The notes under the pieces are model-generated. The model was given only the letters and a program-made list of their open reading frames with translations. It was not told the origin of the DNA and did not search any database. 64,000 nucleotides of DNA, from contig NZ_CP036299.1 in NCBI RefSeq assembly GCF_007752345.1, positions 1,364,001 to 1,428,000 of the forward strand, read 5' to 3'. The translations under genes were made by a program, and so were the position numbers. This document shows positions 5,421 to 60,950 of this stretch, piece by piece. This stretch comes from Planctopirus ephydatiae. GTDB taxonomy: Bacteria > Planctomycetota > Planctomycetia > Planctomycetales > Planctomycetaceae. Positions within the stretch are counted from its first letter, which is position 1. The number at the start of each line of letters is the position of its first letter.

Positions 5421-5829
5421 ATTGCCGGCAGTCGTTCACCAGCCTCACGAGCCGGAAGCGTCAGCGACGGACATTTTCCTATTCCTCTTGACGATCAAGT
5501 TCGGCGATCAAATCGACTTGCCATGGTTCTTACGGAAACGGAGAGTCCCCGTCACCGAAGAATCAAAGGGGTCATCGTTGTTGGCGGGGTGACTCAGTCG
5601 TAGCTTTGAAGGAGGAAAAGGGGGCAGGAGGAAAAGGGGTCAGGACTCGTTTCTGCTTCCCGCTGCGATTGCTGCAGGGCTGGAGGTGACGGACGTACGT
5701 CGGGTCGAGATTGTGAAGGTTGCGGCATCGCATGGTGGCCAAATGCGGTGTAACATGGGATTCCAGCTGGCAATCCGTCGCAACTCATTTGACAGTCCGA
5801 CGCATCAAGATTGACAAGTCCATACCACA
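5421..5829. repeat. intergenic patch with short repeats
   Basis: No convincing gene. A 16-base unit, GGAGGAAAAGGGGGCA (5611-5626), is followed directly by a second copy with one change (5627-5642), and then by CAGGACTC. Near 5445-5475 lies GAGCCGGAAGCGTCAGCGAC, which resembles short high-copy repeats I associate with planctomycetes from memory (not verified). From 5811 a segment beginning TTGACAAG and ending ACCGCCAA recurs, reverse-complemented and with two differences, at about 33985-34010. The whole reads as a place where small elements accumulate. Confidence 0.5.
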
Positions 5830-5867
5830 CCGCCAAACAGCGGTAAAATTCTACCGCACTTCGGCGG
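5830..5867. repeat. two-tier hairpin just before the cassette-like WD40 gene
   Basis: CCGCC (5830-5834) pairs with GGCGG (5863-5867), and inside it GCGGTA (5840-5845) pairs with TACCGC (5852-5857). The arms are separated by matching 5-base internal loops. The function is unknown. It lies just upstream of the GTTCGGCGG at 5878 and could be the inner part of an eroded attC-like palindrome. Confidence 0.55.
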
Positions 5868-6020
5868 TCGAATACCTGTTCGGCGGCAGGCGGCAAAGTG
5901 ACCGGGCGCTTGGAGGCTGAAGTCCGTGTCTGAAAGCGATCTTGGGTGGTTTATTGCATCTGCCAAATGCCTAACTGCGAATGAACCTTCGATACTGTTT
6001 CGTTCAGGAGTTCATGACCC

Positions 6021-7298
6021 ATGCCTAAATTCTTCTCTCCGCTCGTCGCGGCATTCGTCGGCCTGCTGGCCGTGTGCCCCGCTCGAGGAGCAGACCTTCC
6101 CATACTTGCCGCACTTGGCGAGCCCGGCAAACTCCTCGCCGAGTACAAGTCTGAGGCTTCGCAGGGTTCCAACGCCTTCAACAGGGAGCTGTCGGTCTCC
6201 TTGGCAGAAGACCTGATCATCGTCACAGAGTTCGGTGCACCGGCCGCCTTGCCCAAGCTCCAAGCATTCCCGGTTCAAATACTCCGACTGAAACTCACGC
6301 CCAGGATAGAGATCAGTCAGGGGCCGCCGCTCGACGCGCCGCCCGATTACAAGGGCAATCTGTATCGGTGTTCCGCCTTCAGCCCGGGTGGGAAAATCGT
6401 CGCGGTGTCCAGCCAGCTTGTGAAATCCGATAAATGGGACGACAACTGGGCGGTGATCGACTTCTACCGCACCGAAGATGGGGTGCGGTACAAGAGTCTG
6501 CACCGCGAGAAAGGGCCTGACTTCGTGGCGGGCCTGCGGTTCAGCCCGGACGGAAAGTCGCTGGCGGTTGGATACTCCGTGCATAATGCCGGCCTGGAGG
6601 GCAGTTTTGGCTTGTGGGACTTGGGCACGGACACCTTTCGTCAGTTCGGGCGAGTGATGCCCACGGACATCTGCTTCAACGATGCCGGAACGCGAATTGC
6701 CACCAGCGAATCCTACAATGGGATCGTGCAGATTTGGGATGTCAAGAGTGGCAAAGAGTTGGTGAAGGACGACCCGATCCGCGATCCGGATGCCCCGGTG
6801 GGTGCGATGGGCGCACCTCGTTCCATGCGTTTCAGCCAAGATAGCAACACCCTCTTCAGCGCGAGCGTTGAGGCAAGACCCGGACTTCGGACCCGTGAGT
6901 ACAATCTGATCGAGCGGAAGAAAGTCGCGGCTTGGAAGATGCCCAAGAAAGAAGAAGTTGGCGTAAAACGTGAGATGCGAGCGTGCTTTCTATCGCTCGA
7001 CGGGGCGCTGATGCTGACGAGTGAAGAAGCAATACGAAGACGCGACCCGCAGGATCAAGAGTGCGATCTGACCATAAGCTGCGAATTGATCGACATGAAG
7101 AGCCGCCGGCCGCTCGTCAGGATCGATACCTACTCGGGACGGATTAAGAACGCACCGGGAGCAGAGGGTTTCTCCCCCGCATCCGTTCAGAGTCTATATC
7201 TGAGCCGCGACGCCCGTTTTATTGTAACACTTGGCGGCCCCCGAGACGGCAGCGTCAACCGGCTCAAGGTGTGGGCGACCGGTCTGTCGGCTCGCTGA
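6021..7298 (+). CDS. secreted WD40-like beta-propeller protein, likely a mobile gene cassette
   Basis: The 425-residue protein has a signal peptide (hydrophobic stretch to about residue 22, cleavage near ARG-A). WD40/PD40-type blades follow: SPGGKIVAVSS, SPDGKSLAVGYS, GLWDLGTD, DAGTRIATSES, IVQIWDVKSGKEL. It is probably a periplasmic propeller used for binding; no enzyme motif is seen. It is richer in G+C than its neighbours (40 of 60 bases in the line at 6481). Its stop codon lies one base before an attC-like palindrome (7299-7395), and GTTCGGCGG occurs both at 5878 and at 7388. This layout suggests an integron-type cassette. No integrase gene is in the window. The start is the ATG at 6021 with AGGAG about 10 bases upstream. 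Confidence 0.85.
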   Translation: MPKFFSPLVAAFVGLLAVCPARGADLPILAALGEPGKLLAEYKSEASQGSNAFNRELSVSLAEDLIIVTEFGAPAALPKLQAFPVQILRLKLTPRIEISQGPPLDAPPDYKGNLYRCSAFSPGGKIVAVSSQLVKSDKWDDNWAVIDFYRTEDGVRYKSLHREKGPDFVAGLRFSPDGKSLAVGYSVHNAGLEGSFGLWDLGTDTFRQFGRVMPTDICFNDAGTRIATSESYNGIVQIWDVKSGKELVKDDPIRDPDAPVGAMGAPRSMRFSQDSNTLFSASVEARPGLRTREYNLIERKKVAAWKMPKKEEVGVKREMRACFLSLDGALMLTSEEAIRRRDPQDQECDLTISCELIDMKSRRPLVRIDTYSGRIKNAPGAEGFSPASVQSLYLSRDARFIVTLGGPRDGSVNRLKVWATGLSAR

Positions 7299-7395
7299 CG
7301 CCGAACCAAACGCTGCAGCAGACGGCGGGGCATGAATCGTTTCTGGGGCTCCAAGGCTCAGTAGACCCGCCGGTGCTGAGCTTAGTCGTTCGGCG
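7299..7395 (+). repeat. attC-like recombination site behind the WD40 gene
   Basis: The outer arms CGCCGAAC (7299-7306) and GTTCGGCG (7388-7395) are perfectly complementary. The inner arms GCTGCAGCAGACGGCGGG (7312-7329) and CCCGCCGGTGCTGAGC (7366-7381) pair with a few unpaired bases on one side, and the terminal loop is about 36 bases. This two-box arrangement with extrahelical bases and the AAC...GTT ends is the architecture of integron attC sites. It differs from the textbook right box GTTRRRY at the fourth base. The position directly after a stop codon is also typical of attC. A closely related 5' half is present behind the pectate-lyase-fold gene (34339-34346 side, minus strand). Confidence 0.65.
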
Positions 7396-7407
7396 GAGAA
7401 GCATCTC

Positions 7408-7539
7408 ATGACTGACGGTCTTCAACCCGGCGACCGCGTTCTGGACCTACGGGCGGTGTCCCGGTCCGGAGCACTGTTTGCCGGTTTGGTCGCTGCTCCC
7501 CTCGCTGCCGTTCTGTCCGAGCCCGGTAGGGTGGGTTAA
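7408..7539 (+). pseudogene. truncated ORF after the attC-like site
   Basis: An ATG 12 bases after the attC-like right box opens a 43-codon frame (MTDGLQPGDRVLDLRAVSRS and onward). Its TAA lies inside the REP hairpin that begins at 7526. The simplest reading is the 5' end of a following cassette gene interrupted by the REP/RAYT element. I recognise no family. It could also be chance. Confidence 0.4.
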
Positions 7540-7560
7540 GGCTTCGCGCAACCCACCATC
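7526..7560 (+). repeat. REP hairpin, left partner of the RAYT element
   Basis: GTAGGGTGGGTTAAGGCT begins the element. GGTGGGTT (7530-7537) pairs with AACCCACC (7550-7557) over a 12-base loop. It matches the reverse complement of 8170-8203 almost base for base, so the two copies flank the transposase in inverted orientation. Confidence 0.85.
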
Positions 7561-7601
7561 ATCTCACACATCCCGCAATTGTGATGAACACATCCCCGGC
7601 A

Positions 7602-8150
7602 TCACTCAAAATCACTGAATTCGTCGTCGTCCCATGAACTCATGCGGCCCCACTCCAAGGGATATTCACCAGCTCGCGCGAACCGATGAAATGAACTCCA
7701 AGGCCAATCGGTAACTCGGTCCACCAAGCCGTGCTTAAGCGGATTGGCATGGACGTAATCCACGCAACGCTTCAAATCCTCCTCGTCGCGGCAGGTATGT
7801 TCGTAAAAACGTCGTTGCCAGACTGCTTGCTCGCCTCTCGACTGGCGGCGGTGGCTGGGCATGACATCGGCGTTTCCTATTTGAAGCCACGCCCTCGTGA
7901 AGTACATTTTGATCAGCCTCCAGCGGCGTGAATAGTCAACATCGGCGCGAGGTAATGTCCACACGGTGTGCAAGTGATCGGGAAGCAGCACAATCGCAAC
8001 AATCTCAAAGGGATGCTTTCTGCGAACAGTGCGAATCGCCTGACGCAAATGGTGACGGCCAGCGTCTGTGGTCAAGATCGGACGACGGCCTTCTGTCACG
8101 ACCGTGAAAAAGAACGTGCGGCCGTGGTAGTTTCTGCGGTAATCGCTCAT
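7602..8150 (-). CDS. REP-associated tyrosine transposase (RAYT, Y1 family)
   Basis: The 182-residue protein has the Y1 transposase HUH motif in LLPDHLHTVWTLP (His59 and His61). The RAYT-typical C-terminal block is RRFYEHTCRDEEDLKRCVDY followed by VHANPLKHGLV, and the likely catalytic tyrosine is Tyr132. RAYTs are single-copy domesticated relatives of IS200/IS605 transposases that cleave and join single-stranded REP hairpins. Two inverted REP copies (7526-7560 and 8170-8203) flank the gene at distances of about 40 and 20 bases, as expected. The frame is intact, so the protein may be functional. The start is the ATG at 8150. Confidence 0.92.
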   Translation of the reverse strand: MSDYRRNYHGRTFFFTVVTEGRRPILTTDAGRHHLRQAIRTVRRKHPFEIVAIVLLPDHLHTVWTLPRADVDYSRRWRLIKMYFTRAWLQIGNADVMPSHRRQSRGEQAVWQRRFYEHTCRDEEDLKRCVDYVHANPLKHGLVDRVTDWPWSSFHRFARAGEYPLEWGRMSSWDDDEFSDFE

Positions 8151-8169
8151 TGGAATTCTGGGTTATGGG

Positions 8170-8203
8170 TTGGTGGGTTGCGCAGAGCCTTAACCCACCC
8201 TAC
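8170..8203 (-). repeat. REP hairpin, right partner of the RAYT element
   Basis: GGTGGGTT (8172-8179) pairs with AACCCACC (8192-8199), and the element ends CCCTAC. It is the inverted counterpart of 7526-7560, differing at a few loop positions. Confidence 0.85.
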
Positions 8204-8475
8204 GATTCCAACGACTCCACTACACTTTCATACCTTTGCAGCTTCCCTTCTGATGGCCATTGGGCAAGCCGAGCGACTGATTTGTCATCCGCTGCTTGCG
8301 GGAATCATTCCTGCCAAACTTTTCATCATTCACTCGACGGTTATGGATTATCGACTCCCGAACAGCTAAAACATTGACAGTTGTCGATATGTGAAAGTCG
8401 TCTGTTGATCCATCGATGATTTCATCACGTCAGACCGATTTCGACATCTGAATCACAACTCTGGCAGTCAACCGC
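8204..8475. other. intergenic stretch before the giant redox gene
   Basis: No convincing ORF. TTGACA at 8374-8379 could be a -35 box for the plus-strand gene, but I do not see a good -10 box at the right spacing, so no promoter is claimed. Confidence 0.3.
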
Positions 8476-33922: not shown

Positions 33923-34278
<356 letters not shown>

Positions 34279-34346
34279 TCCGAAAATACTGCTGAGCAGG
34301 TCAGCATTGCACCCGGCGAACATCCGCTGCAGAGTTTGATTCGGCA
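34279..34346 (-). repeat. second attC-like site, behind the pectate-lyase-fold gene
   Basis: Read on the minus strand, GCCGAATCAAACTCTGCAGC begins 8 bases after the stop codon at 34355. Over its first 25 bases it differs from the site at 7300 at only four positions. It ends TGCTCAGC, AGTA, TTTTCGG, matching the 3' half pattern of the first site less well. The right end is degenerate relative to GTTCGGC, so this may be an eroded attC. The position, directly after the gene and on the same strand, is the same as for the first site. Confidence 0.55.
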
Positions 34347-34354
34347 CTCGGTGA

Positions 34355-36271
34355 CTACTTCGCAGCCGGCACGCCGACGTACGGTGTGACCGCTCCATCT
34401 CCGCTTTTCACTTCCCTTGTGACGCCGTTGCGTGTCTCCCGGATCAGCATCGCGAACGGATCGCTGCCGTAACAGACTTCGGAGAAGAACGCGAACACGC
34501 TGGCGTCCTCGGTCACGAACATGGGCGCCAATTTGCCCGCGGTCGTGGTGTAACTGAAGGTGCCGAACACCTCGCTCCGACCCCCACCCTTGGTGTGCAA
34601 CAGTGTGCCACCCCGTTCGGTTTTGTAACCGAGAACCCAGAGTTTACCGCCGTCGTTGGTGACATGAGTGCCCTCGTTCTCAACGTTCAGTTGCCGCGCC
34701 CATACCTGCTGATCCTTCTTGAACCGCAGATCGTTGGTCGTCACATCCTCCAGAAAGAGCAGACCCTTTCCGTTGTGCGTGATTCGGGGACACTGAACGC
34801 TCCGCACGATGACGGCCCGGTCTGTAGCGATTTCGATCCCGCCGCCAATCGGTGCGAAGTATTCGACCACGACCGCCTTCGCGTCACCGTCGGCGATGAT
34901 GAAATCGGGCTTGGACTTGGCGGTGTAGTCGATCCACGCACCTGTCCCGAGTATCCGCCGCACCTTTCCGCGAACTCTGACCGACTTTTCCACGGCGTAG
35001 AAGCCAGGGAAGAAGACCGTCGTCGCGCCCGAGTCGATGGCCTTCTGAATCGCGGCGGACGAGTCCTTCTGCCCCGTCGGGTCGGCCCCGAATGTGTCCA
35101 CCACCGCCCAGGTTTTCGGATTATCCCAAGGCACGTCCGGTGTTTCCTGAACGGGCAACCGGAGCGACTTCGCGGGCGCATCGAACGGACTTGTCGCGGC
35201 GTGCGAGAAATACTCCGCGACCTTCGGCCCTTCGCTCCCAGCCTTGTCCACACCCGTTACCCGAAGCGCAGCGAAGTAGTCCGGCGTCCCGACATCGGCG
35301 ACCGCGCGTGCGTAGCCGGTGGTGGTGATATCGCGGAGGGACATCCGCCCGCCGTTGTAGTTGACGATCGCCGGGAGCAGGTTGGTCCCATCACGGCCAG
35401 TGAGATTCGCTTCGATCAGCGACAGCGTGCCGTAACTCCGGATCGCTGGAACCACGTTGACGCTGGTCAGTCCGCGAATGCTGATTGCCTGCCCGTGGTT
35501 GTCGAAACCGAACTCTGTTTGACCAGTGAGAGTGAGGTGCTCGAAGGTCTGGCTGTTCACCGCCCGAGCCGTTACGACGCCACGACGAAATCCCTTCACG
35601 CTGACTCGTTGCACCAGAAGCGGCCCGTTCATATCGCGGTGCGCGAGGTCGAGGCCGACGTCTCCCTGACCGTCCTGGGAGACGATCGCGCAATCCCTCA
35701 ACGCTCCGGTGTTGTTCGAGTAAAACTGCAATCCAATAGCACCCGCGTTCCCCTTCCCCACGTCGAACGTCATGCCTTGAACGTAGTTGTGGAACCAGTC
35801 GGCGGACCCGAAGCCGCCACACCACATGATTGCTTTGGGTTTCGTGGCGTCGGCGAAACTGCCGTCCTTGAGGCGAAGCACAGTCTTTGACGTCGATTGT
35901 CCTTGCAACCAATTGAACCCGTAGGCATTGCCACCTTCCGAGTTTTTGTTCGCCCAGTTGAGCGTATCGGTTACAAGGTAGGTGCCGTTCGGGAAGTAGA
36001 CGACTTTGTGCTTGCCCATCACATCATTAATGGCCTTCTGAATGGCGGCGGTGTCGTCGGTCTTGCCGTCGCCCCTCGCACTGTAAGGTGGTTTGGTGAC
36101 GTCAATGACGAAATCACAGACCGGAAACCGACGATCGGCCTGCTCTTCGATCTTGGCTCGTGGCACCTCGGCGGCACGAGACGAAGCGGAGTCGCCCAGC
36201 CAGACCGAGAGTCCAAGCAGGCAAGCGAAGGCAAGGTGATCCCAACAAGTTCTAGACGGCATCCTCTGCAT
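34355..36271 (-). CDS. secreted two-domain pectate lyase-fold protein, likely a gene cassette
   Basis: The 638-residue protein has an export signal (CLLGLSVWLGDSASSRAAEV) and a pectate lyase superfamily domain, YSARGDGKTDDTAAIQKAIND, then right-handed beta-helix blades. A second copy of the start motif is FGADPTGQKDSSAAIQKAI. It probably binds or cleaves a polysaccharide outside the cell; no catalytic assignment is possible. It is GC-rich, about 39 of 60 bases in the line at 35041, unlike its flanks. An attC-like site lies 8 bases past the stop, supporting cassette origin. The start is ATG 36271, with AGAGAGGATGCAGAGG before it. Confidence 0.87.
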   Translation of the reverse strand: MQRMPSRTCWDHLAFACLLGLSVWLGDSASSRAAEVPRAKIEEQADRRFPVCDFVIDVTKPPYSARGDGKTDDTAAIQKAINDVMGKHKVVYFPNGTYLVTDTLNWANKNSEGGNAYGFNWLQGQSTSKTVLRLKDGSFADATKPKAIMWCGGFGSADWFHNYVQGMTFDVGKGNAGAIGLQFYSNNTGALRDCAIVSQDGQGDVGLDLAHRDMNGPLLVQRVSVKGFRRGVVTARAVNSQTFEHLTLTGQTEFGFDNHGQAISIRGLTSVNVVPAIRSYGTLSLIEANLTGRDGTNLLPAIVNYNGGRMSLRDITTTGYARAVADVGTPDYFAALRVTGVDKAGSEGPKVAEYFSHAATSPFDAPAKSLRLPVQETPDVPWDNPKTWAVVDTFGADPTGQKDSSAAIQKAIDSGATTVFFPGFYAVEKSVRVRGKVRRILGTGAWIDYTAKSKPDFIIADGDAKAVVVEYFAPIGGGIEIATDRAVIVRSVQCPRITHNGKGLLFLEDVTTNDLRFKKDQQVWARQLNVENEGTHVTNDGGKLWVLGYKTERGGTLLHTKGGGRSEVFGTFSYTTTAGKLAPMFVTEDASVFAFFSEVCYGSDPFAMLIRETRNGVTREVKSGDGAVTPYVGVPAAK

Positions 36272-36646
36272 CCTCTCTTACGCCACATAACGACTGCCGT
36301 AACCGCGCACGCGCCATGACGGCCTCCATTTCATAACGTCGGTTCACGTGCTCCGGTTCAAGGCTTTGTTCGGCCCCACATTGCCTTGGCAATATGGATT
36401 CACGCACGAGTAATACTGTGTGGAAACGCGATGGAAAATGATAGCTCCGTCATTTTCGAACCGGCGGCTCGTGAAGTGCGATTCGGTTGCCTTCTATGTC
36501 GATCAACTCAGCGACAAATCCCCTATGTGCCGACGGGCTGAGTTGTACAACACAACTCAGCCCGCCAGTTGAATTCAAATTGAGTAGATATCGCCTGTGA
36601 CTGGTACCCCAAAGGAGAATGGCATGCAGGACACCATCAAACGTCT
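36272..36646. other. intergenic stretch with an attC-like half site and a hairpin
   Basis: On the minus strand GCCGAACAAAGCCTTGAACC (ending at 36374) matches the left half of an attC site, but its right partner is unclear, so it may be the eroded site of a preceding cassette. GGGCTGAGTTGT (36535-36546), loop ACAAC, ACAACTCAGCCC (36552-36563) is a perfect 12-bp hairpin without a U-run. No gene is supported. Confidence 0.45.
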
Positions 36647-60077: not shown

Positions 60078-60950
60078 TCATTGAGATGGAGGTAATTCCA
60101 CTGCTTGAGCTAGGCCTGAGTGATAACTTTCATAGCGAAACTCGTATTGATCGGAAAATTGAGAACGAACCCGTTTATTGAGCCCGCCGGAGCCTCGTTT
60201 CGGTAGAGAGGCTTCATCGAATACTGGTGGTGCCGATCCAATTCTGCGGGCCAGTTCGCTGTAATAGTCAATCCGCCGAACAGGTTCTCGATCAACCCCC
60301 ACCATAACTTCTGGCCCTCCTTCACAGAGTAATCGATAGGCTAATGCAGCCGCATCGGCCTGATGGATGAGGTTGAGCCATGCCTCTCCTGAACCGGCAA
60401 TCGGCTGCTGATGTTTCAGTGCCTCCACTTTCGCCAGCAAACGCCCGGGGCCGTAAATTCCCGCTAATCGCAGAATGGTAAACTTGCCAGCAGGGCAGAG
60501 AGTTCTCACAACCTCTTCGGCTGTCGCACAGATTTCGCCACCTTCAGTTGATGGTGCGACTGGCGTCAGTTCATCGACCCAGCGTCCATCGTCAAACCCC
60601 CAGACACTGGTACTGGAAATGGATACGACAGACTCAGCGGCAGGAGCCGTCGCGATCAGTGCATTTCGCAAGCCATCGACGTAGACCTCACGCTTACTGG
60701 CGGTGGAATTGCGATCATAACCAACGGCCCAGAGGATACGTTTAGCTGCAGGAAGCACTGCGAGTGATTGGGCTTCAGTGATTTCCGCCAGAACCGGTTC
60801 GATCGATTGGCTTTTCAAAATCGCCGCCTTTTCCTGGCTGCGTGTCACCGCAGCACAGCTAAGCCCGGCTGAGACAAACTGGCGAGCAACCTGCAATCCC
60901 ACATAGCCACAGCCAAAAATCAACACGTCAACCTGAGGGAAATTCGTCAT
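60078..60950 (-). CDS. NAD-dependent epimerase/dehydratase-like SDR
   Basis: The 290-residue protein has a Rossmann nucleotide-binding loop VDVLIFGCGYVGLQVARQF near residues 7-24 and an extended-SDR body with SISSTSVWGF and ILRLAGIYGPGRLL. The extended SDR Tyr-x3-Lys motif is not clearly present. It looks like the YeeZ group of SDR proteins. The substrate is unknown. AGG is 6 bases before ATG 60950. Confidence 0.8.
   Translation of the reverse strand: MTNFPQVDVLIFGCGYVGLQVARQFVSAGLSCAAVTRSQEKAAILKSQSIEPVLAEITEAQSLAVLPAAKRILWAVGYDRNSTASKREVYVDGLRNALIATAPAAESVVSISSTSVWGFDDGRWVDELTPVAPSTEGGEICATAEEVVRTLCPAGKFTILRLAGIYGPGRLLAKVEALKHQQPIAGSGEAWLNLIHQADAAALAYRLLCEGGPEVMVGVDREPVRRIDYYSELARRIGSAPPVFDEASLPKRGSGGLNKRVRSQFSDQYEFRYESYHSGLAQAVELPPSQ

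Follow-up and report, generated by a model that had tools for sequence, protein, structure and literature searches.

A gene cassette with an attC site behind a repeated attI-like module in a Planctopirus chromosome without a detected integron integrase

Introduction

The chromosome of Planctopirus ephydatiae carries a GC-rich gene for a WD40-like protein that is followed by a palindrome, and this locus raises the question of whether a gene can be an integron cassette in a chromosome that holds no integron integrase. Integrons have been described from Planctomycetota and Verrucomicrobiota (PMC8618304). Clusters of attC sites without an integrase are known as CALINs (IntegronFinder 2.0, PMC9024848), and their cassettes can be mobilised in trans (PMC12444791). 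The window analysed here is the whole stretch of 64,000 nucleotides around the gene. An initial annotation had proposed that a secreted-protein cassette was captured in the chromosome, and this proposal is supported by the attC score, the junctions, the exchange found in a congener and the absence of IntI. The data presented below indicate that positions 5879-7388 are very probably an integron cassette, made of the gene and its attC, which was inserted at an attI-like G|TT by an integrase that the genome no longer encodes.

Results

An attC site and two G|TT junctions bound the WD40 gene

The gene (6021-7298, forward strand) encodes a secreted-looking WD40 protein of 425 aa (Pfam WD40, 38.6 bits), whose AlphaFold model from single-sequence input has a pLDDT of 44.5, too low for the model to be of use. 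Directly 3' of its stop codon (TGA, 7296-7298) stands CGCCGAAC (7299-7306), which pairs with GTTCGGCG (7388-7395) at the far end of the palindrome. Of the inner arms, TGCTGAGC (7374-7381) pairs with GCTGCAGCA (7312-7320) and leaves one extrahelical base, G7315. On the forward strand this gives the boxes R'' (7300-7306), L'' (7312-7320), L' (7374-7381) and R' (7388-7394). The palindrome had been described as having the layout of an attC site from its complementary ends and its inner arms with unpaired bases, and both the fold and covariation agree with that description. As a single strand the palindrome folds with z=-4, and none of 200 shuffles was equally stable. A covariance model from which the site had been left out still recovered 7300-7394 significantly, with 42.5 bits and E=3e-10 for the 64 kb, an E-value that comes from a short calibration and from a model trained partly on the P. 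ephydatiae genome itself. Across 13 aligned sites there were 42 double-change cells vs 17.9 in shuffles; 0 of 500 shuffles reached 42 and the slid controls were all far lower than the real alignment. These compensatory changes show that the structure of the window attC is common to attCs elsewhere in the genome, and 7300-7394 is a genuine attC site. At the cassette locus, Rfam produced no useful match.

The gene ends beside this attC, and G|TT bounds the unit at both ends. At the left junction the R' box GTTCGGC lies at 5878-5884 (forward strand), with the crossover G|TT between 5878 and 5879, and it is conserved in the congener G001. The direct repeat of GTTCGGCGG that had been reported at 5878-5886 and 7388-7396 is present, and its left copy is the R' box of the cassette abutting a repeated attI-like module. 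A third copy lies at 60273 on the reverse strand. Because the window thus holds three copies vs 0.72 expected, the repeat alone is weak evidence, and what makes the case for a cassette is the covariance match of the attC together with the comparisons between genomes.

To the right, positions 7395-7519 (forward strand, with an ATG at 7409) have no homology to G001, and reading of the sequence suggests that they are probably the remnant of a following cassette, cut by a RAYT element. Synteny with G001 restarts at 7520. The RAYT-like Y1 transposase (7602-8150, reverse strand, Pfam Y1_Tnp) lies between inverted copies of GTAGGGTGGGTTAAGGC, and synteny shows that this element is the right border of the variable region and is common to the window and G001. 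The inverted repeats that flank the RAYT region (7520-8230) are REP-like and are found in many copies in all congeners.

The window holds another cassette-like locus on the reverse strand (33940-36374). An independent model found a second attC at 36285-36374 (49.9 bits, E=1.8e-12), and about 20 nt past its R' starts a gene for a pectate-lyase-like protein of 638 aa (34355-36271, Pfam PF12708, 87 bits). After this gene there is a decayed half attC, GCCGAATCAAACTCTGCAGC, at about 34345, and then a decayed copy of the attI-like module at 33940-34023 (44 bits with module model R3), followed by GTTCGGAA.

Cassettes are found across the genome, an integron integrase is not

The genome is a complete, single contig of 5.21 Mb, in which the genome-wide counts given here are lower bounds. 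A pattern search found two further sites with the same layout as the window attC, surrounded by runs of small same-strand genes with an attC after each. The full covariance model found at least 32 attCs, and a locus-level search added one weak site (L088 4577-4665). They form arrays of 12 at 3.48 Mb and of 8 at 2.49 Mb in addition to small clusters, and the three congeners have at least 24, at least 15 and at least 17. Of the 53 sites checked, most have an upstream ORF whose end is no more than about 50 nt from R''. The window cassette is therefore one among several cassette clusters of the genome and not an isolated case. Within a large array, the repeated segment GGTGGCACAGGT[TG]GCTCGTC ... 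GGGCCACACTGCG occurs twice beside cassette starts (L011 11400-12400, reverse strand).

No match to IntI (TIGR02249) over the cut-off was found anywhere in the complete genome, which confirms the earlier remark that the window lacks an integron integrase and extends it to the whole chromosome; the intI gene that a complete integron would have is absent. The best TIGR02249 matches were XerD and XerC, both over their own cut-offs, and the third was a generic tyrosine recombinase elsewhere. IntI over the cut-off was also absent from the three congeners, less certainly in two of them because these are draft assemblies. Among the 99 genomes searched, 24 had it.

A repeated module occupies the attI position

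The cassette is preceded by a module (5624-5877, forward strand; conserved core 5801-5877) that ends in TTCTACCGCACTTCGGCGGTCGAATACCT, then GTT. There are at least 13 copies in the genome, at least 14 to 23 in each congener and a few in other genera. Of 30 distinct copies read, 26 continue with GTT, an R' box that varies and then unique sequence. The peak of conservation is at G|TT, with 95-96% in the last 20 nt of the module and 35-40% from about ten nt beyond the junction. In the two complete genomes, an attC follows on the same strand within 2 kb downstream of 18 of 26 modules (0.09 expected) and on the opposite strand in none, and 12 of 17 attC clusters are headed by the module, including all four large arrays. 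The module thus occupies the attI position, at the head of arrays with the junction G|TTRRRY. Copies with differing left ends are found inside arrays too, and in G035, a relative that bears IntI, one copy stands in place of the right half of an attC.

Three other identities for the module were considered and rejected. It does not lie near intI in any of the 15 IntI-bearing relatives searched, and the attI of G035 differs from it, so it is not the attI of those relatives. It is not a canonical attC, as it has no conserved R''/L''. As for a sigma-70 promoter, the module has a TTGACA, but no site was called as promoter-like. In its behaviour the module resembles an attI or delta-attI that lacks an integrase gene; it presumably is one, a label that refers to this behaviour because none of the relatives examined has the module beside intI.

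Different cassettes stand behind the same modules in different species

In G001 (a genome of two contigs), the left flank with its DUF2817 gene is syntenic with the window as far as the junction, and the two align again from near the RAYT element (window 7520). Between these points seven attCs and unrelated genes, with products that include Schlafen/AlbA_2, glyoxalase and Imm35 proteins, replace the WD40 cassette. The 200 bp leading up to the junction are 85% identical; past it, identity drops to 52%, as between random sequences. As a presence or absence comparison with a close relative, this result bears out the proposed cassette: the gene is absent at the orthologous site of G001, where another array follows a left junction that matches base for base. 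Beyond the last attC on the right, G001 and the window remain dissimilar as far as the RAYT border, which insertion of a single cassette is insufficient to explain. A second locus behaves in the same manner. In three species (L088, L118, L120) a module follows the same tRNA-Ser(GCT) gene at a distance of about 230 bp, with different cassettes after it, and identity is 87-89% before the junction and 53-59% after it. Exchange at exactly the left junction is thus seen at two loci. Since the cassettes behind the same heads differ between species, exchange went on after the genus had formed.

Additionally, a stretch of 2187 bp occurs twice in the genome, 330 kb apart and 100% identical (L010 10578-12764, reverse complement, and L086). 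It comprises an ORF for an esterase-like protein of 645 aa and its attC, divergence of the two copies sets in one base beyond the crossover point of the attC, and the pair is a recent duplication.

The main rival to an attI-like identity holds that a transposable element inserts itself where cassettes begin and that the module is its end, the true attI of the array being gone. Its dispersal and repetition fit this explanation, as do a REP-like sequence at its left end and its presence, inside array A, within a 665-bp repeat with HTH-transposase-like remnants. However, only the junction end of the module is conserved and the other end is variable, the crossover is at G|TT in every case, the module heads arrays and is never on the strand opposite to the attC, and it stays in place while the first cassette changes between species. 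We regard this rival as a minority possibility of real weight and prefer the attI-like reading.

The cassette looks like a slice of a larger donor locus

The G+C content of the gene had been given as about 65%. That figure did not hold for the whole gene, which has 59.2%, but the contrast with its surroundings did: GC3 is 0.70 in the gene and 0.54-0.59 in its neighbours, and the window has 53.6% G+C. No match at E<=1e-10 was found in 98 relatives of the host. A scan of GTDB r220 contigs gave one relative, on a MAG contig (L122) titled Akkermansia muciniphila, a label that is doubtful, and no further WD40 relatives were found in 146 genomes of the order of this MAG. Residues 1-423 of the cassette protein have 81% amino-acid identity to about residues 1-421 of the L122 protein, which has 872 aa with WD40 followed by leucine-rich repeats (LRR), so that the cassette protein matches its N-terminal half. 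The L122 gene has 59.7% G+C and a GC3 of 0.72. The deviant composition of the cassette gene is explained by this match, as its values are those of the L122 relative and not of the window.

At the DNA level, 5888-7288 (forward strand) has 84% identity to a two-gene locus on the L122 contig. The homology ends at both att junctions, leaving out nine bases at the start of the cassette and eleven bases just ahead of R'', and it takes in the last codons of the LRR gene that lies upstream in L122. From these limits and codons, it seems that 1.4 kb of a two-gene donor locus, cut mid-gene and closed by an attC, gave rise to the cassette, a reading drawn from one relative in a MAG of doubtful label. The L122 locus would then represent the putative donor type, and comparison with this one relative suggests that the 872-aa form is older than the 425-aa form.

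Alternatively, the 425-aa gene could be complete and ancestral, and the L122 gene a later fusion with an LRR gene. Only one relative is known, and residue 423 is near a plausible propeller end (LKVWATGLS), both of which leave room for a fusion. It is nonetheless unlikely, given that the homology extends into the upstream LRR gene, that the C-terminal half of the L122 protein resembles that native upstream LRR neighbour (30% identity) and that no attC was found anywhere on the L122 contig. A slice therefore remains the preferred origin of the cassette. In G035, an intact integron of some 29 attCs lies on contig C28 (L111), and its ORFs often extend into the attC, ending in DAEPGAA-type tails. 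As these ORFs run into attCs, truncated genes closed by an attC may be more general.

Discussion

Two further explanations fare less well than those above. The module could be an unusually long attC of a repeated cassette family, as in Vibrio integron repeats, and three module copies do close a 665-bp cassette that starts at the R' of the preceding attC. This is quite unlikely, because the module is without a conserved R'' or L'' box, the 5' arm of its hairpin decays while the 3' arm keeps its sequence, and upstream of many copies there is a chromosomal gene or a tRNA and no cassette. The three copies of the 665-bp cassette (L010, C1 2489000-2503000) are 85-87% identical and carry the HTH-transposase-like remnants in antisense. 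That the palindrome is an ordinary terminator or a chance hairpin after a native gene, with a coincidental GTTCGGCGG repeat, is exceedingly improbable and counts as already refuted, since the frequency of the 9-mer in the window is in its favour but the attC match with the site left out, the covariation, the absence of any terminator-like site call and the other cassettes in the place of the gene in G001 are against it.

The model favoured here suggests that an IntI, now absent, recombined the attC of the cassette with the head module at G|TT. Such an enzyme would have acted in trans on several dispersed attI-like heads, and would have been lost or have come with another replicon. The cassette itself may have been born by the joining of an attC to 1.4 kb of donor chromosome that had been severed within a WD40-LRR gene; the stop codon of the sliced gene would then have come from the flank of the attC. 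The full picture, a genus with many dispersed attI-like heads, exchangeable cassettes, no intI and traffic in trans, together with a cassette sliced mid-gene and closed by an attC, is in our judgement evenly poised between right and wrong.

Known systems resemble this arrangement in part. As in CALINs, attC cassettes stand without a neighbouring intI, often at conserved chromosomal positions. However, intI is missing here from an entire complete genome, and most clusters begin with a common attI-like module. With arrays of 12 and 8, the genome has the clustered attCs (two or more) without a nearby intI that define a CALIN, whereas the window locus, with a single attC, is below the usual threshold of two. 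Delta-attI sites, known from class 1 and 2 integrons (PMC12901181), are likewise left attI fragments of variable length with a fixed G|TT end that replace an attC in arrays, but the module is found mainly at array starts and is chromosomal and multicopy. Sedentary chromosomal integrons resemble this genome in having arrays (here with as many as 12 cassettes), attCs related to one another and a head that is attI-like, but here the integrase gene is absent. Insertion of cassettes outside integrons at attG sites has reportedly been described by Loot et al. in 2024 (cited in PMC12444791). There, too, cassettes lie in the chromosome away from an integron, but the sites described here have one conserved module in common and not diverse sequences. 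No description of repeated attI-like heads, or of a slice cassette with a known relative, was found among the open papers searched.

A donor-type relative whose homology ends at the att junctions makes the question of how integron cassettes first arise testable. The L122 relative is a rare clue to cassette birth, as it suggests that the interior of a larger gene was excised to form a cassette. Cassette exchange continued after the genus had formed, despite the absence of an integrase from all four genomes searched, two of the congeners being drafts. If the attI-like heads are indeed such sites without an integrase, landing sites would have been multiplied and kept apart from intI, and surveys based on the integrase would miss them.
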